Made by a program: the position numbers and the translations under genes | In this document: positions 4,645-35,064 of the stretch, piece by piece | How the letters are laid out: each line of letters opens with the position of its first letter | Position numbering within the stretch: position 1 is the first letter of the stretch | Notes under the pieces: generated by a model | What the model was told of the DNA's origin: nothing | The model's database searches: none | Seen by the model: the letters and a program-made list of their open reading frames with translations, nothing else | Assembly (NCBI RefSeq): GCF_025460835.1 | Contig: NZ_JAMXAY010000026.1 | Span: 1-63,181 of the forward strand | Source: Parapedobacter soli | Lineage (GTDB): Bacteria > Bacteroidota > Bacteroidia > Sphingobacteriales > Sphingobacteriaceae | DNA length: 63,181 nucleotides | Direction of reading: 5' to 3'

Positions 4645-4817
4645 CCTGTTCAGCGAGGTTACGACATCGTTTTCGTAAAAAAAGAAGTACCTCCAATACC
4701 ATTATCTACAATAAAGCCGTATAATTGGCGCTTAAATCACTTATATTTAATGATACAAAGCTAACAGTTTAGGTCAGAAAGCACCAATTTGTTTGCTTGG
4801 TGTCGACAATCCTCAGT

Positions 4818-8323: not shown

Positions 8324-9637
8324 ATGAATAGAGCATATTTACCAATAATATTGGTTTGTATATCGTCGCTAATGCTTTCCAGTTGCGGCCGGTTCGGTAG
8401 TAGTGGCGGCGAACTGGTCGGCGTAAAGCGGGCACACCTCAAAACCAGCCGGGTTCCACACGGCATGGTACTTGTCCCGGGCGGCACGTTCATCATGGGC
8501 CAGTCTGACGAGGACATCACGTTCTCACAGATTGCCCAAAACCGACAAGTCACCATTTCGTCGTTCTACATGGACGAAACCGAGATATCCAACAGCGAGT
8601 ACCGGCAATTCGTCCATTGGGTGCGCGACTCCCTCCTCATCTACAACTACTTGCAAGACGACAGTTATTTCATCGAGGTGGAAGGCACCGGCGAACGGTA
8701 TATCGATTGGCAAAAGGTAAACAGCGGCAAGCGCTCGCTCTGGAACTCCAAAGACCAGGCCGTGCGCGAACGTACGCGCCAGATGTACTACCAGGGCGAA
8801 GACCGCATTTTTGGCAAAGACGAGATCGATGTCCGCCTATTGCGCTACCATTACGACTGGTACGACCTCCGCGCAGCCACCGCAGCTAGACACGACCCCA
8901 CCAAGGTGCGGTCTGATTTCATCCGGCGCGACACCATCCTCGTATATCCCGACACTACGGTGTGGCTCAACGACTTCAGCTATGCCCAGAATGAGCCGAT
9001 GGTGGAGGGCTACTTCTCGCACCCTTCGTTTGACGAATACCCTGTGGTGGGTGTCACCTGGCGGCAGGCAAACGCATTCAACACGTGGCGCTCACGCTTA
9101 TTTGAAAACCACCAGCGCACACGAAAAAACAATAGCCGCGAAATGCGGCAACCTTACATGCTTCCTTCCGAAGCGGAGTGGGAATACGCCGCCCGCGGTG
9201 GCAGGGTGGGCACCCAATACCCGTGGGGCGGACCGTCAGCACGCAACGCGAAAGGCTGCCTTATGGCCAATTTCAAACCCGGCCGGGGCAATTATATCGA
9301 CGATGGGGCAGCTTATACCGCACCGGTATATTCATACTTCCCCAACGATTTCGGCCTTTATAACATGGCCGGAAATGTGGCGGAATGGACCTCCTCCTCA
9401 TTCAATGAGTCGGCATCGTCGTTTGTACATGACATGAACCCCACCTACCGGTACGATGCAGCCGCGGGCGACCCCGAGTCGTTGAAGCGCAAGGTGGTGC
9501 GGGGCGGCTCCTGGAAAGACATCGGCTATTTCCTGCAGAATGGCGCGCGTGCCTACGAGTACCAAGATACCGCCAAGTCTTACATCGGCTTCCGCAGTGT
9601 ATCCGCATACCCGGGCGTAGATCCAATGAACAACTAG
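8324..9637 (+). CDS. gldK: T9SS/gliding motility lipoprotein GldK
   Basis: This 437-residue outer-membrane lipoprotein (lipobox ending at C21, LMLSSC) has a formylglycine-generating-enzyme-like fold. MVLVPGGTFIMG lies near residue 48, and the C-terminal half shows SEAEWEYAARGG, YNMAGNVAEWT and VRGGSW. GldK (PorK in Porphyromonas) forms the periplasmic ring of the type IX secretion system with GldN, needed for gliding and for export of CTD-bearing proteins. It is the first gene of a colinear gldK-gldL-gldM-gldN block with short gaps, which makes the identification secure. Confidence 0.95.
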   Translation: MNRAYLPIILVCISSLMLSSCGRFGSSGGELVGVKRAHLKTSRVPHGMVLVPGGTFIMGQSDEDITFSQIAQNRQVTISSFYMDETEISNSEYRQFVHWVRDSLLIYNYLQDDSYFIEVEGTGERYIDWQKVNSGKRSLWNSKDQAVRERTRQMYYQGEDRIFGKDEIDVRLLRYHYDWYDLRAATAARHDPTKVRSDFIRRDTILVYPDTTVWLNDFSYAQNEPMVEGYFSHPSFDEYPVVGVTWRQANAFNTWRSRLFENHQRTRKNNSREMRQPYMLPSEAEWEYAARGGRVGTQYPWGGPSARNAKGCLMANFKPGRGNYIDDGAAYTAPVYSYFPNDFGLYNMAGNVAEWTSSSFNESASSFVHDMNPTYRYDAAAGDPESLKRKVVRGGSWKDIGYFLQNGARAYEYQDTAKSYIGFRSVSAYPGVDPMNN

Positions 9638-9673
9638 TATAGCTATATAGACAGAAGCACAACACACAATATC

Positions 9674-10471
9674 ATGGCAGAGAAACGCAAATTCAAAATT
9701 GGTATCAACAACATCATCTCTTGGGGAGCTACGGTAGTTATCATCGGGTTGATGGCCAAGCTGCAGCACTGGCCGGCCGGTGATTGGCTCATCGTGGTAG
9801 GCCTCGGCACCGAAGCACTGCTCTTCTTCCTACTCGGTTTCCAGAGAGAAGACAACGACGTGGATTGGACCCGCGTGTACCCCGAGTTGGCGGAAAACTT
9901 CGAAGGTGAACTGCCCAAGGCCTCTGCGCGGCCTGTAGCCGCTACCGGCAGCACGGCCGCACTCGACAAGATGCTGGCCGATGCGAACATCAGCCCCCAA
10001 CTAATCGGCAACCTGGGCGATGGACTCCGCACCTTTGGCGATAAGGTAGCAGCCATTGCCAACGTATCCGACGCCTCCCTGGCCACCAATCGCTTCACCG
10101 AACGGCTGAATGGCGCCACCGGCAGCGTCGAGAAACTAAATGCCGCCTTCGAGAAGGCGTCGACCGACCTCGCCAGCATCAGCACGAGTGGCAGCGACGT
10201 AACCGCATACCACGAGCAGGTAAACAAGCTGGCCAACAACTTGCAGCACCTCAACGCGGTCTACGAAGTTGAGCTGCAAGATACGGGCAAGAAGCTGCAA
10301 ACCATCTCGCAGCATTACGACAGCATCGCCCAGACCCTGCAGAACTTCAACGACTCCGTGGTGGATACGCAGCAATTCAAAGACCAAGTAGCCCACCTCA
10401 ATAAGAACCTGGCATCGCTCAATGCCGTGTACGGAAATATGCTGGCGGCCATGAATCAACCGCGTGTGTAA
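9674..10471 (+). CDS. gldL: T9SS motor protein GldL
   Basis: This 265-residue inner-membrane protein has two adjacent N-terminal transmembrane helices (about residues 11-31 and 34-54) followed by a long cytoplasmic tail predicted to be helical. This is the standard GldL/PorL layout. GldL surrounds the GldM dimer and converts proton motive force into rotation that powers type IX secretion and gliding. The gene lies 36 bp after gldK and 43 bp before gldM. Confidence 0.95.
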   Translation: MAEKRKFKIGINNIISWGATVVIIGLMAKLQHWPAGDWLIVVGLGTEALLFFLLGFQREDNDVDWTRVYPELAENFEGELPKASARPVAATGSTAALDKMLADANISPQLIGNLGDGLRTFGDKVAAIANVSDASLATNRFTERLNGATGSVEKLNAAFEKASTDLASISTSGSDVTAYHEQVNKLANNLQHLNAVYEVELQDTGKKLQTISQHYDSIAQTLQNFNDSVVDTQQFKDQVAHLNKNLASLNAVYGNMLAAMNQPRV

Positions 10472-10514
10472 TTTATTTTTAAGATACTGGTACCTTAACG
10501 AATAGCATTACAGC

Positions 10515-12050
10515 ATGGCAGGAGGAAAACAGACCCCAAGGCAACGGATGATCGGTATCCTATACCTCGTGTTATTGGGATTAGTGGCGATGAATGTTAG
10601 TGATTCTGTGCTCGACGCCTTCAGGAATCTGGCGGCAAGCCTCAACACATCGACCCAGAACACGCAGGAGGGGATAGACAACATGTTCAATGCCTTCCGG
10701 GCAACCAAACTGAAAGATGAGCCCGAGCGTGCCCGCCCCATATTGGAACGTGCCGAGCAGGCGAGCCAACTGGCCGATGACCTGTCGGGATATATCGACT
10801 CACTCAAAACCATACTCGAGGCGGAAGGCGGTGGATTTAACGAAACAACGGGCGACGTGCGCAAGCGCGACAACCTGAGCATCAGCCCCCGCGTGATGAT
10901 CAAGCAGAAGGAAAACGGGGTAGCCCGGGCAGCACAGCTGCGGAGCCGTATAAACGATACACGCGAACAGCTATTGGCACTGGCAAACAATGAGGTGTCT
11001 TTTTCGCTGGATGCGGAAGATCCCCCCACGCGTGCCGGTATCAGTAAGTCGTGGGAACAAGCCAACTTCGGTGATGGTACCCCACTGACGGCCGCAATGA
11101 CGGCATTGGAAAAAATCAAGGCCGACGTGAAAAATGCTGAGGCCGTGGTTGTAAAACATATCTTCGGCGAGATGGACATGGCCGTGGTAAACCTCGACAG
11201 GTTTGCCGCCGTGGCCGTTGCGCCGTCATCTTACGTAATCCAGGGGCAACCCTACACGGCAAAGGTATTCCTCACCGCCTACGATTCGAAATCGACCCCC
11301 GAAATTTCTGTGGGGGGCAACGTCCTGCCCGTTACTGATGGACAGGCAGTCTATACAGTCAACACATCCAGCGAAGGGATATTCAACTGGACCGGTACCA
11401 TCCGTGTTAAGCAGACCGACGGCACCGTTAAAGAATACTTTACCGAGCCACAAACCTATCAGGTTGCACGGCCGTCGGCTGTAGTCTCGCCCGATGCCAT
11501 GAACGTGCTGTATATCGGTGTAGACAACCCCATCTCGGTATCGGCCCCCGGCATCCCGAAAGAAAGCCTGCAGGTGAGCGGCAAAGGGGTTAGTATCTCC
11601 GGCTCGAATGGCAAGTTCGTGGCGCGGGCAACCCAGCCCGGCACCGCCAGTATACACGTATCTGCCCGTATCGGTGACCAGACCCAGTCGCTCAGCTCTA
11701 CCGAATTCCGCGTGAAGCGAATCCCGAAACCGCAGGCCCGCGTGGCAGGGCGCCCGGGCGGGACGGTCGCCGCAGCGCAGATCCGCGGCCAAAACCGCAT
11801 CTTTGCCGCACTGGAAGACTTTGAATTCGATGCCAAGTTCAACATATCGCGCTTTTCGATGTTGATACAGAAACCACGGGTAGACCCGATGGGGCCGTAC
11901 CAAGGCACGAACGGAACCTTCTCCGGCCCGATGCAAAACGCACTAGGTTCGGTTTCGCCGGGATCGTTCGTGTTTTTCTATAATATCATTGCCGTAGGTC
12001 CGGATGGTGTACAGCAGGAACTGGATCCGATTTCATTCCGGGTCAACTAA
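10515..12050 (+). CDS. gldM: T9SS motor protein GldM
   Basis: This 511-residue protein has one N-terminal membrane helix (about residues 14-32, beginning with the conserved PRQRMIGILYLVL) and a large periplasmic part of four successive domains that reaches the outer-membrane GldK/GldN ring. The N-terminal half is helical with a coiled-coil character, and the C-terminal half is beta-rich, as in GldM/PorM. Length matches the family. It lies 17 bp before gldN. Confidence 0.95.
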   Translation: MAGGKQTPRQRMIGILYLVLLGLVAMNVSDSVLDAFRNLAASLNTSTQNTQEGIDNMFNAFRATKLKDEPERARPILERAEQASQLADDLSGYIDSLKTILEAEGGGFNETTGDVRKRDNLSISPRVMIKQKENGVARAAQLRSRINDTREQLLALANNEVSFSLDAEDPPTRAGISKSWEQANFGDGTPLTAAMTALEKIKADVKNAEAVVVKHIFGEMDMAVVNLDRFAAVAVAPSSYVIQGQPYTAKVFLTAYDSKSTPEISVGGNVLPVTDGQAVYTVNTSSEGIFNWTGTIRVKQTDGTVKEYFTEPQTYQVARPSAVVSPDAMNVLYIGVDNPISVSAPGIPKESLQVSGKGVSISGSNGKFVARATQPGTASIHVSARIGDQTQSLSSTEFRVKRIPKPQARVAGRPGGTVAAAQIRGQNRIFAALEDFEFDAKFNISRFSMLIQKPRVDPMGPYQGTNGTFSGPMQNALGSVSPGSFVFFYNIIAVGPDGVQQELDPISFRVN

Positions 12051-19536: not shown

Positions 19537-19544
19537 TATGTTTG
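19537..19544 (+). promoter_or_regulatory. Promoter of the TPP-riboswitch operon (TATGTTTG)
   Basis: TATGTTTG matches TAnnTTTG, with TTGC at 19514-19517 near the -33 position. The predicted start near 19550 places the riboswitch aptamer at the very 5' end of the transcript, as expected. Confidence 0.6.
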
Positions 19545-19556
19545 CGGCGGTACACA

Positions 19557-19630
19557 GCAAGGGGTGCCCCGATAGGGGCTGAGATTAAACCCTAATTACC
19601 TGATTTGGATTATGCCAACGTAGGGATGCA
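19557..19630 (+). ncRNA. TPP riboswitch (THI element)
   Basis: All conserved blocks of the thiamine pyrophosphate aptamer are present in order: GGGGTGCC at 19561-19568, GGCTGAGAT at 19577-19585, ACCTGATTTGG at 19598-19608, and ATGCCAACGTAGGGA at 19612-19626. The aptamer senses TPP and normally represses expression. The segment GCCAACG (19614-19620) is exactly complementary to CGTTGGC at 19668-19674 in the leader, giving a plausible alternative pairing for switching. No U-rich terminator is seen before the ATG at 19710, so translational control is more likely. Confidence 0.95.
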
Positions 19631-19709
19631 GACCATACAAGACCCATACCGATCTTGTTCCGCGCGCCGTTGGCTCTTCCGCTGAGGGGGCTGTCTAAAC
19701 AAAGACAAT

Positions 19710-20435
19710 ATGATGGAACAGGAAAAAACAACGCTCGAACTCATCCCCCGACAGCAGCAGAACTGGCAGGGCCGCCCGGAATGGTTCTTCAACAGGGAAC
19801 ATACCGATACCTATGAGCAATGGTACGAAGGACGCTACAAGCGCGCCGAAATCTGGCAGAAAAAGGTGATGGAGCAGCTGGTGTCGAAAGACAGCCGCGT
19901 GAAAACGCTGCTTGAATTCGGCTGCGGCACCACGCGCTTCACGCGGTGGTGGAAAGAGATTGGCATCGAAGCTACCGGCGGCGACATATCGCCGCTGATG
20001 CTATCGCAAGCGATGCATCTCTTTGAAGGGGACCTAGTGATGGCCGACTCGCACCACATGCCGTTCAAAGACCATACGTTCGATTCGCTGGCCTTCATCA
20101 CCACATTTGAATATTACCACGATCCCGTGCGCGTGATCCGCGAGGCCGCCCGTGTGGGCCGTTACGGCATCGCCATGGGCATGATGAACCGTAATTCGCC
20201 CAAGGTGCTGCGGCGCAGGGTGCAGGAGCTATTTGGCAAAAACCCATTTTACCTTACGGCCACGTTTTATACCCCACAACGACTGAGTGCTATCATCCAT
20301 AAAGCTCTCCAAGGGCGCGAATACACCATCGAGTGGACGTGCACGGGCCTACCACGGTGGTTTCCTGTGCAGCAGTGGGGTCTCCCCTATGGTGACTTCT
20401 TCGGGCTGTATGTACGGTTCAACGACGTAGATTAA
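19710..20435 (+). CDS. Class I SAM-dependent methyltransferase (TPP-riboswitch operon gene 1)
   Basis: This 241-residue cytoplasmic protein has the Rossmann methyltransferase fold. Motif I is LLEFGCGTTRF near residues 67-77, the acidic residue binding SAM ribose is in GGDISPLM near 93, and MPFKDHTFD near 116 is typical of Methyltransf_11. The substrate cannot be read from sequence. ATGs at 19710 and 19713 are both possible. It is the first gene after a TPP riboswitch and lies 7 bp before the PurM-like gene. The last gene of the operon is a Trm112-like protein, the family that partners SAM methyltransferases in archaea and eukaryotes. Confidence 0.85.
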   Translation: MMEQEKTTLELIPRQQQNWQGRPEWFFNREHTDTYEQWYEGRYKRAEIWQKKVMEQLVSKDSRVKTLLEFGCGTTRFTRWWKEIGIEATGGDISPLMLSQAMHLFEGDLVMADSHHMPFKDHTFDSLAFITTFEYYHDPVRVIREAARVGRYGIAMGMMNRNSPKVLRRRVQELFGKNPFYLTATFYTPQRLSAIIHKALQGREYTIEWTCTGLPRWFPVQQWGLPYGDFFGLYVRFNDVD

Positions 20436-20442
20436 CAGATCA

Positions 20443-21498
20443 ATGGAAAAGCAACTTGGCAAAATCGGCATACCCCTGTTTAACGGCACCATTGCCATGC
20501 AGTGCGGCCACCCGCGCGCTGAGGTACGCACCGGCCCACGTTTCGGCGTGGATGTATCGGTGGTGGACCTCCCCGGCGGCATGGCCATGGCCTTGGCGAG
20601 CGACCCGCTGTCGCTCATTCCTTCACTAGGGCTGGAAGCGTCCGCGTGGCTGTCGGTACACCTCATGGCCAACGACATTGCCACCACCGGCCACGGTCCC
20701 ATGTACGGCCAATTTGTATTGAACCTGCCCGACACCTTAAGCAGTGCGGATTTCAAGCAATACTGGGCATACATCCACCGGTTCTGTTCGGACATCGGCG
20801 TAGCTATCACCGGGGGCCACACCGGATTCATCGCGCACCAACATTCCACCATCTCCGGTGGCGGCACGCTGGTTACCGTGGCCGCGCAGAACACCCTGCT
20901 TACGGCCTCGGCGGCCCGCGCCGGCGACGTAATCCTGGTTACCAAACAGTGCGCACTATCGTCGGCAGCCATCCTGGCCATGAGTTTCCCCGAGACGGTA
21001 AAGAATAAAGCCGGTACGGAGATACATCAGTTGGCTTGCGATACTTTCTACGATACTTCTGCGCTCCAAGATGCATTGGTGGCCGTAGGAGGCGCGGCAG
21101 ACGCGGGACAAGTGAGCGCCCTGCACGACGTTACGGAAGGTGGTGTGCTCGGCGCTATCTATGAGTTGGCGGTCGCCTCGGGCCAGGGCGCCGTTATCGA
21201 TAGTGATAAGCTACCTGTACACCCGGTGCAGCAACAGGTATGCGGTATTTTCGGGCTCGACACGCGCTACTGCGTGGGGGCAGGTTCCATGGTGATGGCT
21301 TGCCGGCCCGACGCCGCAGCCGCCGTGGTGGGACGCTTGGGAGCTGCCGGCATCCCCTGCGCGGAGGTGGGCCAGCTGACGGACGCGGCAAGCGGCATCA
21401 AGCTGGTAGAAGACGGCAGGGCAGCGGACATGCCCTACCACGAGGTAGACCCCTATTGGGCCGCATTTCACAACGCTTATCAAAACGGATGGAAATAA
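20443..21498 (+). CDS. PurM/HypE/ThiL-fold ATP-dependent enzyme (TPP-riboswitch operon gene 2)
   Basis: This 351-residue protein belongs to the AIR synthase (PurM)-like superfamily that includes PurM, HypE, SelD and ThiL. The N-terminal domain has LMANDIATTGHGP near residue 75 and an ITGGHTG loop near 122. The C-terminal domain has the HypE-like HDVTEGGVLGA near 228. The C-terminal cysteine of true HypE is absent (it ends NGWK) and no hydrogenase genes are nearby. Because the operon is under TPP control, a kinase-like step related to ThiL is an attractive guess, unproven. Its stop overlaps the next start (TAATG at 21496-21500). Confidence 0.82.
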   Translation: MEKQLGKIGIPLFNGTIAMQCGHPRAEVRTGPRFGVDVSVVDLPGGMAMALASDPLSLIPSLGLEASAWLSVHLMANDIATTGHGPMYGQFVLNLPDTLSSADFKQYWAYIHRFCSDIGVAITGGHTGFIAHQHSTISGGGTLVTVAAQNTLLTASAARAGDVILVTKQCALSSAAILAMSFPETVKNKAGTEIHQLACDTFYDTSALQDALVAVGGAADAGQVSALHDVTEGGVLGAIYELAVASGQGAVIDSDKLPVHPVQQQVCGIFGLDTRYCVGAGSMVMACRPDAAAAVVGRLGAAGIPCAEVGQLTDAASGIKLVEDGRAADMPYHEVDPYWAAFHNAYQNGWK

Positions 21499-22148
21499 TG
21501 GAAACACCACGCCCTATCGGCACCGGCATTTACCTGGTCATCGACCCTTCGATGCCCAAGCCCCAACTGTACGATAAACTGGATGCGGTACTAGGCGAAA
21601 GTATCGCCGCCCTGCAGATCTGGGACCATTTCCGCAAGGGGGAAGATATCCCCGCGCTCATCGGCGAGATATGCCGCCGCTGCCATGCCAGAAACGTACC
21701 CGTGCTGATCAACAACAGGTGGAGTTACTTGGTAGATACACCACTGGACGGCGTGCATTTTGATACCATCCCCCACGGCTACAAGGCCGTCCAGGCAGCC
21801 ATAGACCGGCCCTTCCGCTGCGGCATCACCTGTACCAACGATATGGAGCCGGTATGCTGGGCGCGCGACCACGGAGCAGATTATATTTCATTCTGCTCGA
21901 TGTTCCCATCCAAGACGGTAAGCAGCTGCGAACTGGTCACTCCCGGGTCGGTGCGCCAAGCAAGGGCCATCTATGGCGGCCCCGTGTTTTTGGCTGGCGG
22001 CATTTTGCCCGGGAATGTCCGGGAACTCCATGAACTCCATTATGCGGGCATTGCCCTCATCTCGGGCATCATGGGCAGCGACTCGCCTGCCGAAGCCATC
22101 CGCGAATACAAAAAACACATCCAAATCACGAAAACCCAATTGCCATGA
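21498..22148 (+). CDS. Divergent thiamine-phosphate-synthase-like (ThiE/TenI) protein (TPP-riboswitch operon gene 3)
   Basis: This 216-residue TIM-barrel protein follows the ThiE pattern: VLINNRWSYL near residue 73 (canonical INDR), DGVHFD near 88, GADYISFCSMFPSKT near 130 and FLAGGI near 161. However, the ThiE phosphate-binding signature QxRxK is replaced by QIWDHF near residue 36. This suggests a changed substrate or reaction within the ThiE/TenI family. The start is the ATG overlapping the upstream stop; an in-frame ATG at 21489 would add three residues. It overlaps the Trm112-like gene by 4 bp. Confidence 0.82.
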   Translation: METPRPIGTGIYLVIDPSMPKPQLYDKLDAVLGESIAALQIWDHFRKGEDIPALIGEICRRCHARNVPVLINNRWSYLVDTPLDGVHFDTIPHGYKAVQAAIDRPFRCGITCTNDMEPVCWARDHGADYISFCSMFPSKTVSSCELVTPGSVRQARAIYGGPVFLAGGILPGNVRELHELHYAGIALISGIMGSDSPAEAIREYKKHIQITKTQLP

Positions 22149-22417
22149 ACATTGAGACCATCAACAAGCTATGCTGCCCGTTCGACCGGGCAGACCTCAC
22201 GCTCACCCCTATCCACACCACCGTTGCCGGCAACGTCGACGAGGGGTACCTCAGCTGTGGGCAGTGTGACCGCATCTACCCCATTGTGCGGGGCATCCCG
22301 ATTATGAGCCCCGACGAGTACCGCGAATTCGAGCTGGAGAAGCCTTTGCTCGACCGCTGGAAAGCGCACCTCAAGGGCAAAACCATTGAGCATTTTCGCT
22401 TGGTAGATGAAACTTAG
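22145..22417 (+). CDS. Trm112-like zinc-ribbon protein (TPP-riboswitch operon gene 4)
   Basis: This 90-residue protein resembles the Trm112/YcaR family. The second metal pair is a clear CGQC near residue 38, followed by YPIVRGIPIM. The first pair is degenerate: LCCPFDRADL near residue 8 keeps CCP but has no CxxC. Trm112 proteins stabilise and activate SAM methyltransferases, so pairing with operon gene 1 is a natural hypothesis. It overlaps the ThiE-like stop by 4 bp (ATGA), showing tight translational coupling. Confidence 0.8.
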   Translation: MNIETINKLCCPFDRADLTLTPIHTTVAGNVDEGYLSCGQCDRIYPIVRGIPIMSPDEYREFELEKPLLDRWKAHLKGKTIEHFRLVDET

Positions 22418-25901: not shown

Positions 25902-27395
25902 ATGCAGTTTATTGAAGAAGCACCGAAGAAACTTCCTATTTATGCCTCACCCGATGTATTGGTGGTAGGGGCAGGTCCTGCCGGAATTGGCGCGGCTATA
26001 TCCGCGGCCCGCAATGGCGCCAAGGTCATGCTTTTAGAACGCTACGGCTTTTTGGGAGGGAACCTTACCATCGCCATGGTCAACCCGATGTTCACGTTCC
26101 ATGACGTGAAAGGCAAACAGGTAATCCGCGGGATCGCCGGCGAACTCGTTGACCGCCTCGTGCAGCTTAAGTCGTCGCAGGGCCACGTTACAGACCTCAC
26201 GTTCGATAACGCGTCGATGACGCCGTTCGATCCTGAAGGGATGAAGTATTTGCTTTTCCGGATGGTGACCGAAGCCGGCGTGGAGCTATTACTCCATTCG
26301 TGGGCTGTGGGGGTTACCCGCGAAGGCAGCCGCGTATCGTCGGTTATCATTGAGAACAAATCCGGGAGGCAGGCCATTGTTCCCAAGTACGTCATCGATT
26401 GCTCTGCCGATGCCGACATTGCAGCCATGGCAGGCGCTCCTTTCGTAAAAGGGCGGGAAGAAGATGGTGCCATGCAACCGGTAACCTTATTTTTCCGGAT
26501 CGGCGGGATAGACATGGGAAACCTACGCCATTGGATGAAAAACAACCGGGACCTACTGAAAGACTCCCCTACCGACGAGGAAATCGATTCCAGTAAGGCC
26601 ATCGCTTTCCTTGGTTTGAACCAATTGGTGAAGATGGGCATGGAAAAGGGGGAGTTTCCGAAAGATGCTGCCCCCCGGATCCTATTTTACGAGTTGCCGC
26701 AGGAAGGCCAGATTGCCGTGAACGCCACGCGGTTGCAGGGCATAGACGGCACCAATGCAGCCGACCTGACACGGGCCGAAGTAGAAACACGCGTACAAGC
26801 GTGGGAAATCCACAAATTCTTACAGAAGTATGTGGGTGGGTTCGAACGATCATATATCCTGGACACCGGGGCCCAGGTCGGGGTACGCGAAACACGCCAT
26901 ATCCGTGGCGACTACCAGCTCACCGAGCAAGATGTGCTGGCCAACCGCGCTTTTGACGATGGTATCGCCTGTGGGACATTCGCCATCGACATCCACCCGC
27001 CCGAGGGCGAACAACAGGTTTTCACGGGGTCGGGCAAAGCCGTTTATGAGGTGCCTTATCGCACATTGCTCCCCCAGGGCCTCGACAATGTGCTGGTGGC
27101 CGGAAGGAGCATTTCGGCTACGCATGCCGCTTTCGGATCATCGCGGGTGATGGCCACTTGCATGGCGATCGGCCAAGGGGCCGGTATTGCCATTGCCAAT
27201 CTCATCCCTAAAGGCGGCGACGTACGCAGTGTAAATGTGGGCGATGTACGGGCAAAATTAATCGCGCAGGGGCAGTATCTGTTGGGCATGGCCGACGACC
27301 AGCCAGCAGACCCTACGCTCGCACTCAATAAAGGCGAAGGCTCGGGCGCGGCGGCATCCCACTACAATCCATTCAAAGACCAAACGCATGGTTAA
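25902..27395 (+). CDS. FAD-dependent oxidoreductase (PF12831-like)
   Basis: This 497-residue flavoprotein has an N-terminal Rossmann motif VVGAGPAGIGAA near residue 22 and an ERYGFLGGNLT segment typical of FAD_oxidored (PF12831) proteins. The C-terminal LVAGRSISATHAAFGSSRVM near residue 395 is the family's FAD-binding closing motif. No signal peptide is seen, so it is cytoplasmic. Family members oxidise sugars or related hydroxyl compounds, and this one probably acts on a product of the adjacent arabinoside locus. It overlaps the MFS gene by 8 bp, so the two are translationally coupled. Confidence 0.85.
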   Translation: MQFIEEAPKKLPIYASPDVLVVGAGPAGIGAAISAARNGAKVMLLERYGFLGGNLTIAMVNPMFTFHDVKGKQVIRGIAGELVDRLVQLKSSQGHVTDLTFDNASMTPFDPEGMKYLLFRMVTEAGVELLLHSWAVGVTREGSRVSSVIIENKSGRQAIVPKYVIDCSADADIAAMAGAPFVKGREEDGAMQPVTLFFRIGGIDMGNLRHWMKNNRDLLKDSPTDEEIDSSKAIAFLGLNQLVKMGMEKGEFPKDAAPRILFYELPQEGQIAVNATRLQGIDGTNAADLTRAEVETRVQAWEIHKFLQKYVGGFERSYILDTGAQVGVRETRHIRGDYQLTEQDVLANRAFDDGIACGTFAIDIHPPEGEQQVFTGSGKAVYEVPYRTLLPQGLDNVLVAGRSISATHAAFGSSRVMATCMAIGQGAGIAIANLIPKGGDVRSVNVGDVRAKLIAQGQYLLGMADDQPADPTLALNKGEGSGAAASHYNPFKDQTHG

Positions 27396-28653
27396 GCAAT
27401 CAGGCAACATCCGGTGGGGTGTGGCAGCCCTGTTGTTTTTCGCGTCCACGCTCAATTACCTGGATCGGCAGGTACTTTCGGTATTGGCGCCCACGATCCA
27501 AGCCGAATTGGGGTTGACCGATGTGGATTATTCCTTTATTACCTCATCGTTTCTGTTGAGTTACACCGTGATGTATGCCATCAGCGGCGCATTGGTAGAC
27601 CGCCTGGGTACCCGCAAAAGTTTCCTATGGGCCGTGGGCGGCTGGTCCATTGCCAACATCCTTCACGCGTTTGCGAAGACGGCGATGCAATTCTCGGCAT
27701 TCCGGTTCCTATTGGGCATTGCCGAGTCGGCCAATTTCCCGGCTGGTGTCAAAGCGGCTTCCGAGTGGTTCCCCCTTCGCGAACGCGCCCTTGCTATCGG
27801 CATGCTCAACGCAGGGTCGTCGGCAGGCGCAGCCATCGCCATCCCCCTGGTATCGGTAATTGCCATCCAGTTCAACTGGCAGGCCGCTTTCGTGGCTACC
27901 GGGCTTCTGGGTTTGATCTGGATGTTCTTCTGGCGGCGGCAATTCTACCTTCCACAAGACCACCCACGTATTTCGGAGGCCGAGCGGGAGTTGATCTTGG
28001 ACGGGCAACCGCCGCAGGCCGCTACCACTGAGAAAACAAGTATCTGGCGCCTGCTGCGTATGCGGCAAGCCTGGGGGTGCCTTTGCGCACGTATCTTCAT
28101 CGACCCGGTGACCTATTTCCTCATTTTCTGGATACCCAAATACCTGCAGGAGCAGCAGGGCCTTACCCTCGACCAGATGGGGTACTTCGCCTGGATTCCG
28201 TTCGTAATCCTCGCTGTAGGCACGTTGTTGGGCGGCATCATCCCCAAATGGTTCATCACCAAATGGGGCTGGTCGCTCAACCGCTCACGCAAATCGGTCA
28301 TGCTTTTTGCGTCTTTGCTTGTACCGGTGTGCTGCGTTGCCTTGTTCTACGCACCAGGCATGGGGGTAGCATTGATTGCCATCGCGGGTGTCATGCTCGG
28401 TCACGGGCTTTGGGGCAACATCACCATTCCAGCCGAAGTATTCCCCCGCCACGTACAGGGCACCCTCACCGGTATCGGCGGCACCTTGGGTGGCATCGCG
28501 GGTATACTTTCACAGCTTTCGGTAGGATGGACGGTCCAGCACCTTTCCTATGTGCCCATCTTCGTTGCCATTGGTGTCGCCTACTTATTTACGCTGGGAT
28601 GCGTGCAGTTGTTCACCGGAAAATTGGGTGAGATCATCACGATAGACCCATAG
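27388..28653 (+). CDS. MFS transporter, ACS/hexuronate-like
   Basis: This 421-residue 12-helix inner-membrane carrier has TLNYLDRQVLSVLAP near residue 20 and RFLLGIAESANFPAGVK near residue 107, both hallmarks of the anion:cation symporter branch (ExuT-like). These carriers import sugar acids or related organic acids. Coupling to the FAD oxidoreductase (8-bp overlap) suggests the transported compound and the oxidoreductase belong to one pathway. Confidence 0.88.
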   Translation: MVKQSGNIRWGVAALLFFASTLNYLDRQVLSVLAPTIQAELGLTDVDYSFITSSFLLSYTVMYAISGALVDRLGTRKSFLWAVGGWSIANILHAFAKTAMQFSAFRFLLGIAESANFPAGVKAASEWFPLRERALAIGMLNAGSSAGAAIAIPLVSVIAIQFNWQAAFVATGLLGLIWMFFWRRQFYLPQDHPRISEAERELILDGQPPQAATTEKTSIWRLLRMRQAWGCLCARIFIDPVTYFLIFWIPKYLQEQQGLTLDQMGYFAWIPFVILAVGTLLGGIIPKWFITKWGWSLNRSRKSVMLFASLLVPVCCVALFYAPGMGVALIAIAGVMLGHGLWGNITIPAEVFPRHVQGTLTGIGGTLGGIAGILSQLSVGWTVQHLSYVPIFVAIGVAYLFTLGCVQLFTGKLGEIITIDP

Positions 28654-28703
28654 ACCATAACCAACATAGAAAGTACAAATTATTTAACCAAACAATAAAG
28701 CTA

Positions 28704-31700
28704 ATGAACACATTAAAACTAATCCAGTATCTAAGTATCAGGGGCCGCTGGGTGCTCCTGTTACTCGCTGTTGCAGGCATATCGCGTGCACAGCAACAGG
28801 TTGATGTGTCCGGAACGGTCCGCGATCTCGAAGGCAATGCACTTGCAGGCGTTACCGTGAGTCAGAAAGGTGCTGGCCAAGCCCTCGCCGTGACCAACCC
28901 CGACGGCACATTTTCCCTCCGCTCGCCGGCAGACGCAACACTCGTTTTCTCATTGATCGGGTACGGCAATGAGGAGGCCAGTGTGACGGGCCGTCCGCTA
29001 AACGTGGTCATGACCGCCGTGGTGGCCAACCTTGACGAGGTGGTCGTGGTTGGCTTCGGCACCACCAAAAAGGTGAATCTTACCGGATCCGTTGCCTCCG
29101 TGTCGGGCGAAGAAATCGCTAAGCGGCAGGTGGGCCAGAGCTCCATGGCCTTACAGGGCATTGTTCCCGGCGTAACCGTGACACAGAGCACCGGTCAGCC
29201 CGGCGTTGACGGCGGCTCCATCCGCGTGCGGGGGGTCGGTACGCTTAATAATTCCAACCCACTGGTGTTGGTGGATGGCGTGGTGATGTCGCTGGACCAT
29301 GTGGATGTATCATCCATCGAGTCAATATCGGTACTCAAGGACGCAGCATCTTCAGCCATCTATGGCTCGCGGGCAGCCAATGGGGTTATCCTTATTACCA
29401 CCAAGCGCGGGCGCGAAGGGCAGTTTTCCTTTTCGTATGACGCCTACCTGGGTAAGCAGTCGCCCACCAATATGATTAAACCGGTCAACGGTCTCGACCA
29501 CATGAACCTGATCAACGAAGCACACACCAACGTCGGCCGCTCACCGCTTTTCCCCGCCGATTACATCCAAAATTACATCGCCAATAAAGACACCGACCCG
29601 GACACCTATCCCGATTCGGACTGGCAGGACGCCCTGCTTACCGGCAGTGGTCTGCAACAGAACCACGTGCTGAGCGTGACAGGCGGCACGGAGCGCGTCA
29701 AATTTTTTGGATCTTTCGGCTACCTCAACCAAGCGGGGCTCATCGATAACGTCAATTTCCAGCGTTACTATTTCCGGCTCAATACCAATGTAAAGCTATC
29801 CGAAAAGTTGAGTGGATCGTTCGATTTATACATCCGCAATCAGGACCGCAAATCCGTCACCAATGCCGGACCATTCTCCGGGCCGGCAGCCTTTTCACCG
29901 TCGACCTCCACAGGTATGATCTTTGGCTTAATCAATAAGCTGCCGGCTACACAAGCCATCAAGTACACAAACGGATTATGGGGCGAAGGTCAGAATGGCG
30001 CCAACCCTGCAGCGATTGTGGAGGAAGGAGGTTGGTGGCGGCAAACCAGTTTCCCCCTTGCCGGAAACTTCTCGCTGGATTATAAGCCATTCGAGTTCCT
30101 TACGGCTCGAGTGACATATGCGCCTACCTATTCGCAGCCGGTTACCCGTTCGTTCAACAACGTAGTCAAAACGTACGACCCTGCGGGCAACCCCCGGTTT
30201 TCCGTACCTTCTATCAATGAGCTGAATGAGGATATGGCTACCGAGCGTGAAGACCAGGTGGACGTCACACTCACGTTCGCCGAAGACTACGGCAACCATT
30301 CAGTCAGCGCCATGGGCGGATACCAGTACCTGAATGCAGCCTACAGCGGCTTCAGTGCATTCCGCGACAATTTCCTGTTTCCCGATTATACGGTGCTTTC
30401 AGCCGGGTCATCGGACAACATGCGCAATGGAGGTTATGCAGGCGCATGGTCACTGATATCCTATTTCGGCCGCGCCAATTATGCGTTCGCCGGTAAATAC
30501 CTGTTCGAGGCCAATATCCGGCACGACGGGTCATCGCGTTTCGCAGAAGGCAACAAGTGGGGTACATTCCCGTCGTTCTCGGCCGGATGGCGCCTCTCTG
30601 AAGAACCGTTTATGGCAGGCACACGCAGTTACCTCGACGATTTGAAAATCCGCGCTTCATGGGGTCTTTTGGGCAACCAGCAAATCGGCAGCGATTACCC
30701 CTTTGCACCCACCGTCTCACTCAGCCCACGTTATGTTTCCAACGACCAGGTGGTCAATGGGGCCGCCATACTCGACTTGGCCAACACCGATATCACGTGG
30801 GAAACCACCGAGATGACGAACATCGGATTAGACGTACGGCTGCTGCGTAAACTATCCGTTTCCTTCGACTATTACCAAAAAGAAACACGGGGGATCCTGC
30901 TGCAACTCAGCATCCCGAGAACAATGGGTGTCACGGCACCTTACCAGAATGCCGGTGTGGTTGAAAACAAAGGCTGGGATCTGCAGCTCGACTATTCCGA
31001 TTACAGCAAGCCATTCAAATATGCGGCTACGGTGGTGCTGTCGGACGTACGCAATAAGGTGGTCGACCTCAAGGGCATCCAGCAAACCGGCACCATCGTA
31101 AATCGCGAGGGTTACCCAATAAACTCGTTGTTCCTTTTGCGGTCGGCAGGTTTGCTTTCGCCGGCCGATTTTGATAGTGAGGGCAATTACCTCCATACCC
31201 CTACGCAATTTGGCGTCGTAGCACCCGGTGACATCCGGTATCTGAACACCAACGACGATAATGTCGTCAACGCCGGCGACCGCGAAGTGTTGGGAAGTAC
31301 CATTCCACGCTACACCTACAGCTTCAACCTGTACCTGGGCTACCGGAATTTTGATTTTTCAACCCTGCTACAAGGCGTGGGTAAGGTGGATGGTTACCTC
31401 ACCAGTAACGCCATCACTCCTTTCTTGCTTGGCGGCACCGCATACGAATACCAGAAGGACCGTTGGACCCCCGACAATCCCAATGCGGTATTCCCCCGGC
31501 TCGCATTCGGCGAAAGCCACAACACACAGCAGTCGGACTATTGGATGCGTAGTGCCGCGTACTTACGTGTAAAAAACATCCAACTGGGCTATACGCTCCC
31601 CACAGCGGTAGCCAACAGCATGCGCATACAGAAAGCCCGCCTATACATTTCGGGCGAAAATTTGTTTACGTTCGACAATTTCTGGGAGGGGTGGGATCCT

Positions 31701-31778
31701 GAAATCTCCGCGGCCAGCAACGGGGCTTATTACCCGCAGGTAAAAACATTCAATGTCGGACTGAACCTCAAATTTTAA
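28704..31778 (+). CDS. SusC-like TonB-dependent outer-membrane transporter (arabinoside locus)
   Basis: This 1024-residue protein has a signal peptide ending near residue 30 (SRAQQQ), a carboxypeptidase-D-like regulatory domain (about 33-105), a TonB-box-like LDEVVVVGFGT near 109, a plug domain (about 120-230) and a 22-strand barrel. There is no STN domain, so control is by the LacI regulator and not by FecI/FecR signalling. It pairs with the SusD gene 11 bp downstream to import oligosaccharides released at the surface. Confidence 0.93.
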   Translation: MNTLKLIQYLSIRGRWVLLLLAVAGISRAQQQVDVSGTVRDLEGNALAGVTVSQKGAGQALAVTNPDGTFSLRSPADATLVFSLIGYGNEEASVTGRPLNVVMTAVVANLDEVVVVGFGTTKKVNLTGSVASVSGEEIAKRQVGQSSMALQGIVPGVTVTQSTGQPGVDGGSIRVRGVGTLNNSNPLVLVDGVVMSLDHVDVSSIESISVLKDAASSAIYGSRAANGVILITTKRGREGQFSFSYDAYLGKQSPTNMIKPVNGLDHMNLINEAHTNVGRSPLFPADYIQNYIANKDTDPDTYPDSDWQDALLTGSGLQQNHVLSVTGGTERVKFFGSFGYLNQAGLIDNVNFQRYYFRLNTNVKLSEKLSGSFDLYIRNQDRKSVTNAGPFSGPAAFSPSTSTGMIFGLINKLPATQAIKYTNGLWGEGQNGANPAAIVEEGGWWRQTSFPLAGNFSLDYKPFEFLTARVTYAPTYSQPVTRSFNNVVKTYDPAGNPRFSVPSINELNEDMATEREDQVDVTLTFAEDYGNHSVSAMGGYQYLNAAYSGFSAFRDNFLFPDYTVLSAGSSDNMRNGGYAGAWSLISYFGRANYAFAGKYLFEANIRHDGSSRFAEGNKWGTFPSFSAGWRLSEEPFMAGTRSYLDDLKIRASWGLLGNQQIGSDYPFAPTVSLSPRYVSNDQVVNGAAILDLANTDITWETTEMTNIGLDVRLLRKLSVSFDYYQKETRGILLQLSIPRTMGVTAPYQNAGVVENKGWDLQLDYSDYSKPFKYAATVVLSDVRNKVVDLKGIQQTGTIVNREGYPINSLFLLRSAGLLSPADFDSEGNYLHTPTQFGVVAPGDIRYLNTNDDNVVNAGDREVLGSTIPRYTYSFNLYLGYRNFDFSTLLQGVGKVDGYLTSNAITPFLLGGTAYEYQKDRWTPDNPNAVFPRLAFGESHNTQQSDYWMRSAAYLRVKNIQLGYTLPTAVANSMRIQKARLYISGENLFTFDNFWEGWDPEISAASNGAYYPQVKTFNVGLNLKF

Positions 31779-31789
31779 AACGATAGATC

Positions 31790-33424
31790 ATGAAAAAGAT
31801 AATCTTCATCGCAATATGTGTATTACTGCTAGGATGTAGCAAGCAGCTGGATAAGTTCCCCCTCGATGCTCCCTCAACGGGCACATTTCTAAAGACCGAG
31901 GCAGAGCTCCGTGCCGCAATCGCGGGCTGTTTCTCCCCCTTATCGTTTCGATTTGGTGAAAACCCCTTCGCAATCTGGTTCGACATGTATTCAGACATCG
32001 CAGCCAATCGCGACGCCACACCACACTCGTATTGGGGCACACCCACCGCAGGAAATGTCAATACCATCTGGAATAATATGTACACCGTTATCGCACGATG
32101 CAACTTCGTGCTTGACAACATCGACCGTGTGACCGGTACTTCCGAGGTAGTCATCAACCAGTCTAAGGGTGAGGCTAAGTTTCTACGTGCTTACGCCTAT
32201 TCGCTGCTTTCGCAGTTCTATGGCGACGTGCCTTTGGTGACCACCACATTAGAGCTCTCTGACGCCTACGTATCGCGCGACGCGAAGAGCTTGGTTGTTG
32301 ACTTCATTTTATCGGAGCTGACCGAGGCAGCAGGTCTCTTGCCGGCTACGAATGCGCCGAACACCATGGCCATTTCGGGCGGTGCAGCCAATGCGTTGGC
32401 GTCACGTGTAGCGCTCTATAACGAGCGCTGGTCCGAAGCCATCGCAGCCGCAGAAGCGGTAATGGCACTAGAAGGAACACAGTTCGAGCTTAACCCCGAC
32501 TACGAAGGCATCACCCACCGCGCCGGTAAAACGTCCAAGGAAATCATCTGGGCGATCCAATTCAACTATAACGACGTAATCCACGAAACACCCGTATCAT
32601 TCCGCTCGCGGATGTCGGGGGGCTACAGCAACCGAATGCCTGTACAAGCACTGATCGATTCGTACCTGAGTATTGACGGACTCCCCATCGATGAATCGCC
32701 ATTATACAATCCGGCGAAACCTTTTGAAAACCGCGACCCCCGGCTAGCCATGTCCATCGCGCTACCGGGGAGCGTATACTACGGCTACCAGTTCGAAACC
32801 CACAAAGACAGCTTGATGTGCTGGAACTACAACGTGAGCCCGGCGGTACGCGTACCGAATCTCGACGCGACCCATACCTTTGCCAGCTTCGCCGGGTATT
32901 GCTGGCGGAAATACGCCGATCCGACCGAGGAGCATGCCACCCGTTCGGATATCAACCCCATCATCCTGCGGTATGCCGAGGTGCTGCTCAATTACGCGGA
33001 AGCCAAACTCGAAGCCAACCAATTGGATGCAACGGCTTATGAAGCAATTAATAAGTTAAGGCGACGTGTTGGCATGCCCGAAGTTGCCGCTGGATTGAGT
33101 TCCGATGCATTCCGCACGGTCGTCCGCACGGAACGCAAGATTGAACTCGCCGGTGAGGGCTTACGCTACTTCGATATCATCCGGTGGCGCATTGCCGAAG
33201 ACGTACTGAGCGGGCCATGTTACGGTCGTATACCGCGAGGCTTTTTAGCCGCTGCCCCAGCTATCGATGAGAATGGAACACCGGATTACAGCAATGTGTC
33301 GAATGCCGATCAGATGCGCGTCATCCAAACCCGCATCTTCGACCCCGGGGCCAATTATTTATGGCCAATCCCTGATATTGAAATCCAGACAAATGACAAT
33401 CTCGTTCCCAATCCGGGTTATTAA
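31790..33424 (+). CDS. SusD/RagB-like glycan-binding lipoprotein (arabinoside locus)
   Basis: This 544-residue outer-membrane lipoprotein has a lipobox LLLGC with acceptor Cys at residue 16. The SusD fold is shown by the TPR-like first half (FLRAYAYSLLSQFYGDVPLV near 127) and the C-terminal RyXX-type region with ELAGEGLRYFDIIRWR near 455. It caps the SusC channel and delivers glycan. It is followed by two GH51 enzymes. Confidence 0.93.
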   Translation: MKKIIFIAICVLLLGCSKQLDKFPLDAPSTGTFLKTEAELRAAIAGCFSPLSFRFGENPFAIWFDMYSDIAANRDATPHSYWGTPTAGNVNTIWNNMYTVIARCNFVLDNIDRVTGTSEVVINQSKGEAKFLRAYAYSLLSQFYGDVPLVTTTLELSDAYVSRDAKSLVVDFILSELTEAAGLLPATNAPNTMAISGGAANALASRVALYNERWSEAIAAAEAVMALEGTQFELNPDYEGITHRAGKTSKEIIWAIQFNYNDVIHETPVSFRSRMSGGYSNRMPVQALIDSYLSIDGLPIDESPLYNPAKPFENRDPRLAMSIALPGSVYYGYQFETHKDSLMCWNYNVSPAVRVPNLDATHTFASFAGYCWRKYADPTEEHATRSDINPIILRYAEVLLNYAEAKLEANQLDATAYEAINKLRRRVGMPEVAAGLSSDAFRTVVRTERKIELAGEGLRYFDIIRWRIAEDVLSGPCYGRIPRGFLAAAPAIDENGTPDYSNVSNADQMRVIQTRIFDPGANYLWPIPDIEIQTNDNLVPNPGY

Positions 33425-33453
33425 CGGCTAGAAACAAATAAACAACACCATAA

Positions 33454-35064
33454 ATGATGAGAGATATTGTTATCAAGTCGATATTTCTAACCCTGGTGGG
33501 CGGGTTAACCCTGCACCCCCTTTGCGGGCAGCAGACACAGGTGACCTATGTAACAATTGCCATACCCGATAAGCTGATACAAGTTGACCCAATGATCTAT
33601 GGGCAGATGCTGGAAAATGTCAATGATAGCATGATCTATGGCGGCGTAGCGGATCTCCGCGGGAATGTGCGACAGCACCTTATCCCCCATCTACAGGATT
33701 TGCAAATCCCCGTAATGCGCTGGCCGGGCGGCACCGTAGTTTACGAGTACCATTGGCAGAACGGGGTTGGCCCCAGAGACAAGCGGCCCACCGTACCGAC
33801 CCTAGCCTGGGGGGGTGTAGAAAACTATCAATTCGGCACCGATGAGTTCTTGCAATGGTGCAAGGAGGTGGGTACTATGCCTTACATCAATCTGAATATG
33901 AGCCTCCATCCCGATTACGAAGGGACGCTGGAAGAGGCACTAAACTGGATGGCTTATGTGAATGAGGATGCGAGTAACGGATATGGCAAGCTCAGGGCGG
34001 CAAACGGCCATCCTGAACCCTATGGTGTCAGATTTTGGTGTATCGGCAACGAAAACTATCTCACCAGCCGCTCAGCCCGCGTTCAGGAGTCGGACGAGCA
34101 GTACGCAAAACGGTTGAATGTATGGGCCAGTGCCATCCGTCGCCATCATCCGGATGTAGAGTTGTTGGGCATTGGTCATACCGAGAGTTGGAACCAAACA
34201 ATTCTCAGCGAAAACGGGCATCTGATCGACTTCCTCACCCAACATTATTATGTTAATAGCCTGGTGAAAGATGGGGAAATCCAAGACCCGCTGAACACGT
34301 TGTTTGCCCCCCTTAAAATGGAGGCCCATTTGGCCCGGCTAGGGATGCAATTGGCAACCGTAAACAGCAAGTTCGGCCGTTCAGATCGTCCTATACGCCT
34401 TAGCGTGGACGAATGGAACAACAGGCATTCCGTTGAAAGTGGTAATGGGTACCGATTCAGCCGGCAGTCACCACGGCGGCAATTCGACGTTGTGGTGGTG
34501 AGCGGCATGCTCAATGCATTCATCCGGCAAAGCCCCCACGTGGGCATGGCCAATTACATCTTCCCTGTCAACGCCCATGGATTGATCCGTACCGTTGGTA
34601 ACAGCGACGCCTACCAAACCCCCATTTATCATGTCTTCAAGCAGTACCGCCAACAAATGGTCGGGACTAAATTAGAAGCTACGGTCCAAGGGCCGACCGT
34701 CGATATCGAAGCGCTTAACCTCACGATAGATGGTGATACCCGATACGACAGCATTGCGATGTTGGAAACGCATGTTCCATTTATCGATGCGGCGGCGGTG
34801 CACAACGCTGATGGCAACATCTATGTCTCATTGATTAACCGTTGTCCGGATAAAACACATCGGGTGAGCCTTGCCGTACCCGACGGTTATCGGAGTGAGT
34901 CGGTATGGATGCTTGGTGATGGTGATATCAACGCCCGGAACAGTTCCGAGAACCGAAAGGAAATCGTACCTTCGGTCAAGCCCATTAGTACCAAGCGAGG
35001 CAAAGTGGATATTGAAATCCCAGCCTGTGGGTTGAAACTAGTCAAATTGACACCGACCGGTTAG
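33454..35064 (+). CDS. GH51 alpha-L-arabinofuranosidase, copy 1
   Basis: This 536-residue enzyme has a signal peptide (about residues 1-26, PLCGQQ) and a (beta/alpha)8 barrel of family GH51. The acid/base glutamate lies in CIGNEN near residue 200 and the nucleophile in SVDEWNNRH near 319. MRWPGGTV near 87 is another GH51 signature. The C-terminal 150 residues form the family's beta domain. It removes terminal arabinofuranose from arabinan or arabinoxylan side chains. It is closely similar to the next gene, so it arose by tandem duplication. Confidence 0.9.
   Translation: MMRDIVIKSIFLTLVGGLTLHPLCGQQTQVTYVTIAIPDKLIQVDPMIYGQMLENVNDSMIYGGVADLRGNVRQHLIPHLQDLQIPVMRWPGGTVVYEYHWQNGVGPRDKRPTVPTLAWGGVENYQFGTDEFLQWCKEVGTMPYINLNMSLHPDYEGTLEEALNWMAYVNEDASNGYGKLRAANGHPEPYGVRFWCIGNENYLTSRSARVQESDEQYAKRLNVWASAIRRHHPDVELLGIGHTESWNQTILSENGHLIDFLTQHYYVNSLVKDGEIQDPLNTLFAPLKMEAHLARLGMQLATVNSKFGRSDRPIRLSVDEWNNRHSVESGNGYRFSRQSPRRQFDVVVVSGMLNAFIRQSPHVGMANYIFPVNAHGLIRTVGNSDAYQTPIYHVFKQYRQQMVGTKLEATVQGPTVDIEALNLTIDGDTRYDSIAMLETHVPFIDAAAVHNADGNIYVSLINRCPDKTHRVSLAVPDGYRSESVWMLGDGDINARNSSENRKEIVPSVKPISTKRGKVDIEIPACGLKLVKLTPTG

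Follow-up and report, generated by a model that had tools for sequence, protein, structure and literature searches.

A TPP-riboswitch cassette of four genes in Parapedobacter soli and other Bacteroidota, and its possible role in a non-canonical route to thiamine monophosphate

The closest described systems are the loci of Bacteroides thetaiotaomicron that are controlled by thiamine pyrophosphate (TPP), which the available text of PMC5613172 gives as thiSEGCHF-tenI, OMthi, and pnuT-tnr3. We analyzed a stretch of 63,181 nucleotides from Parapedobacter soli (contig NZ_JAMXAY010000026.1; hereafter, the window) in which a TPP riboswitch aptamer is followed by genes for a class I S-adenosylmethionine (SAM) methyltransferase, an AIRS-fold protein that is kin to HypE and ThiL, a ThiE-like TIM barrel, and a Trm112-like zinc-knuckle protein. 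Like the Bacteroides operons, as far as that text describes them, this cassette is led by a TPP aptamer, encodes a member of the ThiE/TenI family, and is apparently tied to TPP supply. In contrast to those operons, it has no ThiS, ThiG, ThiC, ThiH, ThiF, PnuT, or Tnr3; it adds the methyltransferase, the Trm112-like protein, and the AIRS-fold protein; and its ThiE relative lacks the residues for binding hydroxymethylpyrimidine diphosphate (HMP-PP). The open-access literature that we searched, which mostly leaves subscription papers outside, yielded no description of the four-gene cassette. We regard it as a TPP-controlled operon for thiamine supply, and there is a real chance that it represents a new pathway. 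We put at slightly better than even the chance that this is a TPP-controlled, horizontally moving cassette through which thiamine monophosphate (TMP) reaches the cell's ordinary ThiL along a non-canonical route; the genomes that carry it mostly lack ThiC, ThiG, ThiD, and canonical ThiE.

The aptamer lies at 19550-19643 on the forward strand, as do all four genes. It matches the full length of RF00059 (model positions 1-105) with 72.5 bits, versus a gathering cut-off of 54.3 bits (E = 2.4e-12), and it is the sole above-threshold Rfam match across the window. The methyltransferase gene (19710..20435, with an ATG at 19710 or at 19713) encodes a match to PF08241 (Methyltransf_11; 61.2 bits vs. a cut-off of 21.2). 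It is followed by the genes for the AIRS-fold protein (20443..21498; PF00586 or AIRS, 36.6 bits, and PF02769 or AIRS_C, 68 bits), the ThiE-like protein (21498..22148; PF02581 or TMP-TENI, 80.7 bits), and the Trm112-like protein (22145..22417; PF03966 or Trm112p, 31.5 bits vs. a cut-off of 22). Every one of these Pfam matches is above its cut-off, and together with the RF00059 score they confirm the first-pass annotation, which had placed a TPP aptamer before these four kinds of genes. Its account of how the genes are coupled is exact on direct reading: there is a 7 bp gap between the methyltransferase and AIRS genes, a TAATG overlap between the AIRS and ThiE-like genes, and an ATGA overlap between the ThiE-like and Trm112-like genes. 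We looked for an expression platform in the leader between the aptamer and the first gene (19644..19709, forward strand) and saw no terminator-like or promoter-like matches there; the fold z-score of the leader is -0.50.

When we searched 300 genomes from the order with the AIRS-fold protein, we obtained 39 matches: 38 strong ones (at least 283 bits, including P. soli itself) and a weak one (39 bits, in genome G222). At all 37 of the other strong loci, a TPP motif precedes the four genes, whose order is unchanged, and the operon's aptamer exceeds the Rfam cut-off in all 38 genomes that carry the cassette (carriers). We also scanned species genomes with an AIRS alignment, which gave at least 579 relatives. 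The best 80 of these, which we refer to as the named loci, represent many Bacteroidota families as well as Balneolota. A methyltransferase gene is upstream of the AIRS gene in 80 of these 80 best loci, and ThiE-like and Trm112-like genes are downstream in 77; in the other three (L180, L210, and L218), the contig ends 64-236 bases past the AIRS gene. The TPP motif was identified by pattern in 78 named loci and by Rfam in the remaining two (L226 and L232), and RF00059 passed its cut-off in all 24 named loci on which Rfam was run. Among the 37 order loci and the 80 named loci, every cassette that is flanked by sequence on either side contains all four genes. The grouping that was first noticed in the window recurs under a TPP motif more than chance would explain (37/37 order loci and 77 of the best 80 of at least 579 relatives), and we strongly favor the view that the cassette is one functional unit under the TPP aptamer. 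We saw no conserved fifth gene (the commonest other neighboring family is present in just 6 of the 80 named loci), nor any conserved transporter, export, or resistance gene beside the cassette among these loci. A search of 395 genomes from across the phylum with the methyltransferase gave 13 matches, including P. soli, each with at least 423 bits. In the 12 new carriers, AIRS-fold and TMP-TENI genes adjoin the methyltransferase gene (this check covered those two genes). No plasmid-borne cassette was seen in a plasmid collection, where the matches were to relatives of single proteins only.

Horizontal transfer has occurred repeatedly, as shown by a tree that we built from the window's cassette and 77 of the named ones. 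(The tree was built with a quick method and with support from the Shimodaira-Hasegawa-like approximate likelihood ratio test only, and 21 of its 75 inner branches are open.) The cassette of Algoriphagus alkaliphilus groups with Arenibacter and not with three further ones from Algoriphagus; Ferruginibacter and Pedobacter chinensis are sisters (support 100); and Arenibacter, Emticicia, Runella, and Sphingobacteriaceae each appear at more than one place. We also compared protein distances across 115 complete sets (106 distinct, with duplicates kept in). Of the six pairs, the methyltransferase and the Trm112-like protein have the highest correlation (0.80), followed by the AIRS-fold and ThiE-like proteins (0.78), and the other four pairs range from 0.67 to 0.73. 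Among the four proteins, conservation is highest for the methyltransferase, with a mean pairwise identity of 0.77 over the 115 sets.

The gene content of the carriers points to TMP. We compared 59 genomes from the order, namely the 38 carriers and 21 of the 262 genomes without the cassette (G222 being counted among the 262); these 21 are the ones that happened to be listed by the AIRS search. ThiC was found in 2 of the 38 carriers (G057 and G177) and in 8 of the 21 non-carriers (P = 0.0025, Fisher exact test, with kinship ignored here and below), and ThiG was found in the same ten genomes. The genome of P. soli has no match to either. Since 36 of the 38 order carriers lack both ThiC and ThiG, neither the pyrimidine nor the thiazole is made via these enzymes there. 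ThiD was above its cut-off in no carrier and in 10 of the 21 non-carriers (P = 5.6e-6), with weaker ThiD-like matches of 120-168 bits in three carriers. A TMP-TENI protein beyond the operon's own is present in 10 of the 38 carriers, compared to any TMP-TENI protein in 19 of the 21 non-carriers (P = 1.9e-6), so the operon's protein is the sole TMP-TENI protein in 28 of the order carriers. It is also the sole one in all 12 of the carriers from elsewhere in the phylum, while 5 of 10 phylum non-carriers have one. Thiamine pyrophosphokinase (TPK) is absent from all 59 genomes, and hence from all 38 order carriers, which implies that TPP is not formed there from thiamine via TPK. A true ThiL, in contrast, is encoded in all 59 genomes (with 301.5 bits in P. 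soli) and in all 22 phylum genomes tested, among them the 12 carriers. The survey covered ThiC, ThiG, ThiD, TMP-TENI proteins, ThiL, and TPK in the order panel, and the last three of these in the 12 phylum carriers. We also considered that the cassette might hold ordinary orthologs of ThiL and ThiE. This was ruled out by the equivalog cut-offs, by the residues described below, and by the separate ThiL in 59/59 and 22/22 genomes. The operon thus withstands both outcomes that the first-pass annotation had named as refuting: the four genes do co-occur in other genomes, and they do not encode ordinary ThiE and ThiL.

The ThiE-like protein has lost its HMP-PP and magnesium residues. Its nearest solved relatives are ThiE (3.7e-22) and TenI (1.5e-11) from Bacillus subtilis, with which it shares the TMP-TENI fold and a glycine-rich phosphate side, and it misses the cut-off for canonical ThiE (TIGR00693; 79.0 vs. 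145.1 bits). We aligned 106 distinct ThiE-like sequences with sequences from relatives, 15 of the ThiE type (13 distinct genes, two of which were entered twice) and 6 of the TenI type, after dropping a fused one from L107, and we examined R59, K61, D93, D112, and K159 (B. subtilis ThiE numbering), which we take to be the ligands of HMP-PP and magnesium. In the cassette's proteins, R59 is replaced by tryptophan in 106 of 106; K61 and K159 are never lysine; D112 is never aspartate (it is proline in 95); and D93 is kept in just 2. No variation is seen at W42, T111, C133, or C144, and the phosphate side retains its two glycines. The cassette's protein differs from both ThiE and TenI in having tryptophan for R59, in the loss of K159, and in the invariant C133 and C144. 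Because R59 and K159 are retained in all six TenI-type sequences, this looks like a third subfamily beside ThiE and TenI.

The AIRS-fold protein has the superfamily fold in common with HypE and ThiL. Its nearest relative is HypE both by profile (E = 1.2e-19) and by fold (TM-score 0.78), with ThiL close behind (the mean predicted local distance difference test, or pLDDT, of the model is 92.4), and the fold matches include a ThiL with a bound nucleotide. It misses every NCBIfam equivalog cut-off, including those for ThiL (TIGR01379; 66.3 vs. 184.15 bits), HypE (TIGR02124; 70.6 vs. 251.6 bits), and SelD (TIGR00476; 43.2 vs. 125 bits). It differs from HypE and ThiL in falling below both of their cut-offs, and a separate ThiL is present in 50 of the 50 carriers tested. 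HypE carries a C-terminal cysteine, and just 3 of 109 AIRS-fold sequences from the cassette have a cysteine within the last 8 residues. Its absence from the other 106, along with the equivalog cut-off, rules out that this is the HypE of a hydrogenase. In the plasmid collection, the closest relatives are 33-34% identical over 95-96% of the protein and are found on three Haloarcula plasmids. On 3/3 of them, the AIRS-family gene is head to head with genes that are annotated as encoding a thiamine-binding protein and the binding protein of a thiamine ABC transporter (L266, 5483-8008; L267, 5487-8008; and L268, 5487-8008). We confirmed PF01910 in L266 and L268. More distant relatives, in one record each from Halobacterium, Haloferax, and Acaryochloris, have no thiamine neighbors; the one from Acaryochloris is near hypA and hypB.

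Prokaryotic Trm112 proteins of the short kind have the signature [C/D]PX[C/D]X19-36CX2C, according to the available text of PMC5372719, and the cassette's protein has C11, D14, C38, and C41 in all 106 sequences. It misses the equivalog cut-off for archaeal Trm112 (NF038101; 47 vs. 77), and its best solved relatives are chains 6zxw_H and 6f5z_C. The methyltransferase that was solved with Haloferax Trm112 (6f5z_B and 6f5z_A) ranks 5 and 6 among the fold matches of the cassette's methyltransferase; its other relatives are generic, and Bud23 is also matched. (The model of the methyltransferase is middling, with a mean pLDDT of 69.5 and mostly low values for residues 1-41, and its fold matches say little about the substrate.) Both cassette proteins match the Haloferax Trm112-Hvo_0019 complex (6f5z); unlike that complex, they are bacterial, and their operon also includes the ThiE-like and AIRS genes. 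The two proteins likely form a putative heterodimer, and we have moderate confidence that the methyltransferase works with its Trm112-like partner.

Beside the observed gene set, aptamer, ThiL, missing classical genes, and loss of ThiE residues, we infer the following chemistry. The holoenzyme of methyltransferase and Trm112-like protein would methylate a small precursor, and the AIRS-fold protein would use ATP to activate or phosphorylate a precursor. The ThiE-like protein might bind a ligand of the thiazole-phosphate type at its glycine-rich phosphate side and complete TMP by taking the pyrimidine from a donor that is not HMP-PP, with the invariant cysteines perhaps taking part. High TPP would turn the operon down. 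Our confidence that the cassette is linked to thiamine with TMP as the end product is moderate, and our confidence that the ThiE-like protein is a joining or finishing enzyme that uses another donor is weak to moderate. As to the precursors, we slightly favor their being salvaged or converted, because no enzyme that would build a skeleton is recognizable, while synthesis is favored by 25 of the 38 order carriers having no second TPP aptamer that we found with strict filters, and by the absence of a conserved transporter beside the cassette. As a more specific version, we tentatively suggest a second route to TMP without ThiC, ThiG, ThiD, or canonical ThiE, encoded on a self-contained cassette that lineages acquire by horizontal transfer, in which the methyltransferase-Trm112 pair and the AIRS enzyme would prepare a block with a leaving group other than diphosphate and the cysteine-bearing ThiE relative would join both rings. 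The first-pass annotation had proposed a thiamine-linked operon of unusual content, and this stands; its suggestion of a methylated thiazole or pyrimidine derivative as the product does not fare as well, as the gene content of the carriers points instead to the supply of TMP to ThiL, with a methylation step included.

The neighborhood of the cassette holds few other thiamine genes. We looked for eleven kinds (with twelve queries) in about 5-6 kb around 117 loci (37 from the panel and the 80 named loci, with 9 cassettes in both). Apart from matches to the cassette itself, ThiL was found in L212, L044 has a ThiF-like gene, and L057 gave a weak match to TonB. L212 is from Balneolales, and its ThiL (290.6 bits vs. 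a cut-off of 184.15) is encoded by the next gene, 22 bp past the Trm112-like gene and on the same strand. ThiL in this position is what would be expected for an operon that supplies TMP, and as both genes are present in this locus, neither the AIRS-fold protein nor ThiL stands in for the other.

Several observations weigh against the cassette being a supplier of TMP. The adjacency to ThiL was seen in only 1 of the 117 scanned loci and could be due to chance. G057 and G177 have the cassette alongside ThiC, ThiG, and another ThiE. ThiL is also present in two non-carriers (G007 and G014) where TMP-TENI proteins, ThiC, ThiG, and TPK are all absent, so ThiL can be fed in some way outside our survey (by imported TMP or by a thiamine kinase). 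TPK is present in 11 of the 12 phylum carriers. Some carriers have TPP-controlled importers (PnuT-type genes or a TonB receptor); P. soli itself has a second TPP aptamer, which is below the threshold (48.3 vs. 54.3 bits; L071 7603-7730, reverse strand, or G000:C118:25602-25729) and lies directly upstream of a TonB-receptor-like gene of 823 residues. Finally, in a collection of leaf bacteria, all 21 thiamine prototrophs had ThiC and ThiG (PMC9666465), and the available text is silent on whether any of them are carriers. Pedobacter sp. Leaf176 is a carrier (L198), and the main text of that study does not name it.

It is rather unlikely, in our view, that the cassette instead performs salvage around an AIRS kinase for imported thiamine, HMP, or hydroxyethylthiazole, with the other three proteins converting a damaged or modified vitamer. 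The relatives on all three Haloarcula plasmids (33-34% identity), which adjoin genes annotated for thiamine binding and for a thiamine ABC transporter, would fit a kinase of this kind, as would the fold matches to nucleotide-bound ThiL, the TPP-controlled PnuT or TonB genes in several carriers, and the absence of TPK from the order carriers. However, thiamine genes are not found next to the more distant relatives from Halobacterium, Haloferax, and Acaryochloris, no conserved transporter is beside the cassette, no other TPP aptamer was found in 25 of the 38 carriers, and a kinase alone would leave the ThiE-like protein and the methyltransferase unexplained. A quite improbable alternative is that the ThiE-like protein makes TMP as an ordinary synthase and merely uses different residues to bind HMP-PP, with the methyltransferase, Trm112-like protein, and AIRS-fold protein as accessories. 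B. subtilis ThiE is indeed its nearest solved relative (3.7e-22), and it is the sole TMP-TENI protein in 28/38 order carriers and 12/12 phylum carriers. But the presumed ligands of HMP-PP and magnesium are lost across 106 distinct sequences, TIGR00693 is missed, ThiD (which makes HMP-PP) is above its cut-off in 0/38 carriers, and none of the cassettes that are sequenced on both sides lacks any of the four genes.

The cassette might instead make an analog of thiamine (an antivitamin or a special cofactor), by analogy with bacimethrin, whose cluster also uses a methyltransferase. This least probable of the alternatives would suit a methyltransferase under a TPP aptamer, in chemistry that is related to thiamine as in the bacimethrin cluster, and a cassette that moves horizontally. 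Unlike that cluster, the genome of P. soli has no ThiC-type match (the rest of the cluster was not searched for); furthermore, the exclusion between the cassette and ThiE and ThiD of the main pathway suggests the supply of a vitamin rather than an extra product, and there is no conserved export, resistance, or other fifth gene. It is also very improbable that no small molecule is synthesized and that, at low TPP, the methyltransferase and Trm112-like protein act on the translation machinery by modifying its RNA or protein. The Trm112 partners described in the available text of PMC5372719 do act on translation, and the methyltransferase is unusually conserved and also matches Bud23. Against this, the pair is strictly linked to a ThiE relative and an AIRS-fold protein, and the cassette tends to exclude ThiE, ThiD, and ThiC.

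If the cassette does supply TMP, then carriers may be mis-scored as vitamin B1 auxotrophs, as genome-based calls lean on ThiC and ThiG (for example in PMC9666465, in the text available). It would also define a subfamily of ThiE that has lost the metal site and gained cysteines, and it would give the AIRS fold an additional job. Thiamine biosynthesis is described as common to the Mucilaginibacter strains studied in PMC12074574, which names no genes for it in the available text.

Other TPP motifs and TMP-TENI genes were also seen. In the carrier loci L256, L257, L258, and L263, a TPP motif precedes a PnuT-type gene and, after it, an acyl-CoA-dehydrogenase-like gene (we checked Pfam for L256), and L246 has the same two genes with no aptamer. 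In two carriers from the genus of P. soli, a TPP aptamer lies immediately beyond a gcvP-like gene, at its 3' end (L254, about 4666-4762, forward strand; L255, near 5003, reverse strand). These aptamers point antisense into the gcvP-like gene, and no gene was seen in the direction of the aptamer for about 3 kb. L246 (4530-5156, reverse strand), L247 (4534-5157, reverse strand), and L265 (4168-4791, forward strand) each encode a single TMP-TENI protein that scores about 130 bits and has some of its metal residues changed. Its gene is next to a phosphodiesterase-like gene, and the genomes have neither ThiC nor an above-cut-off ThiD.

Within the window, the cassette is flanked by an opposite-strand gene of 523 residues, which has no Pfam match at E = 0.01, and by a glucuronoyl-esterase-like gene; neither looks related to it. 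The window also contains, at 8324-12050, GldM and a gene similar to a sulfatase-modifying factor, and a run at 25902-35064 includes an FAD oxidoreductase, a TonB receptor plug domain, and an arabinofuranosidase.

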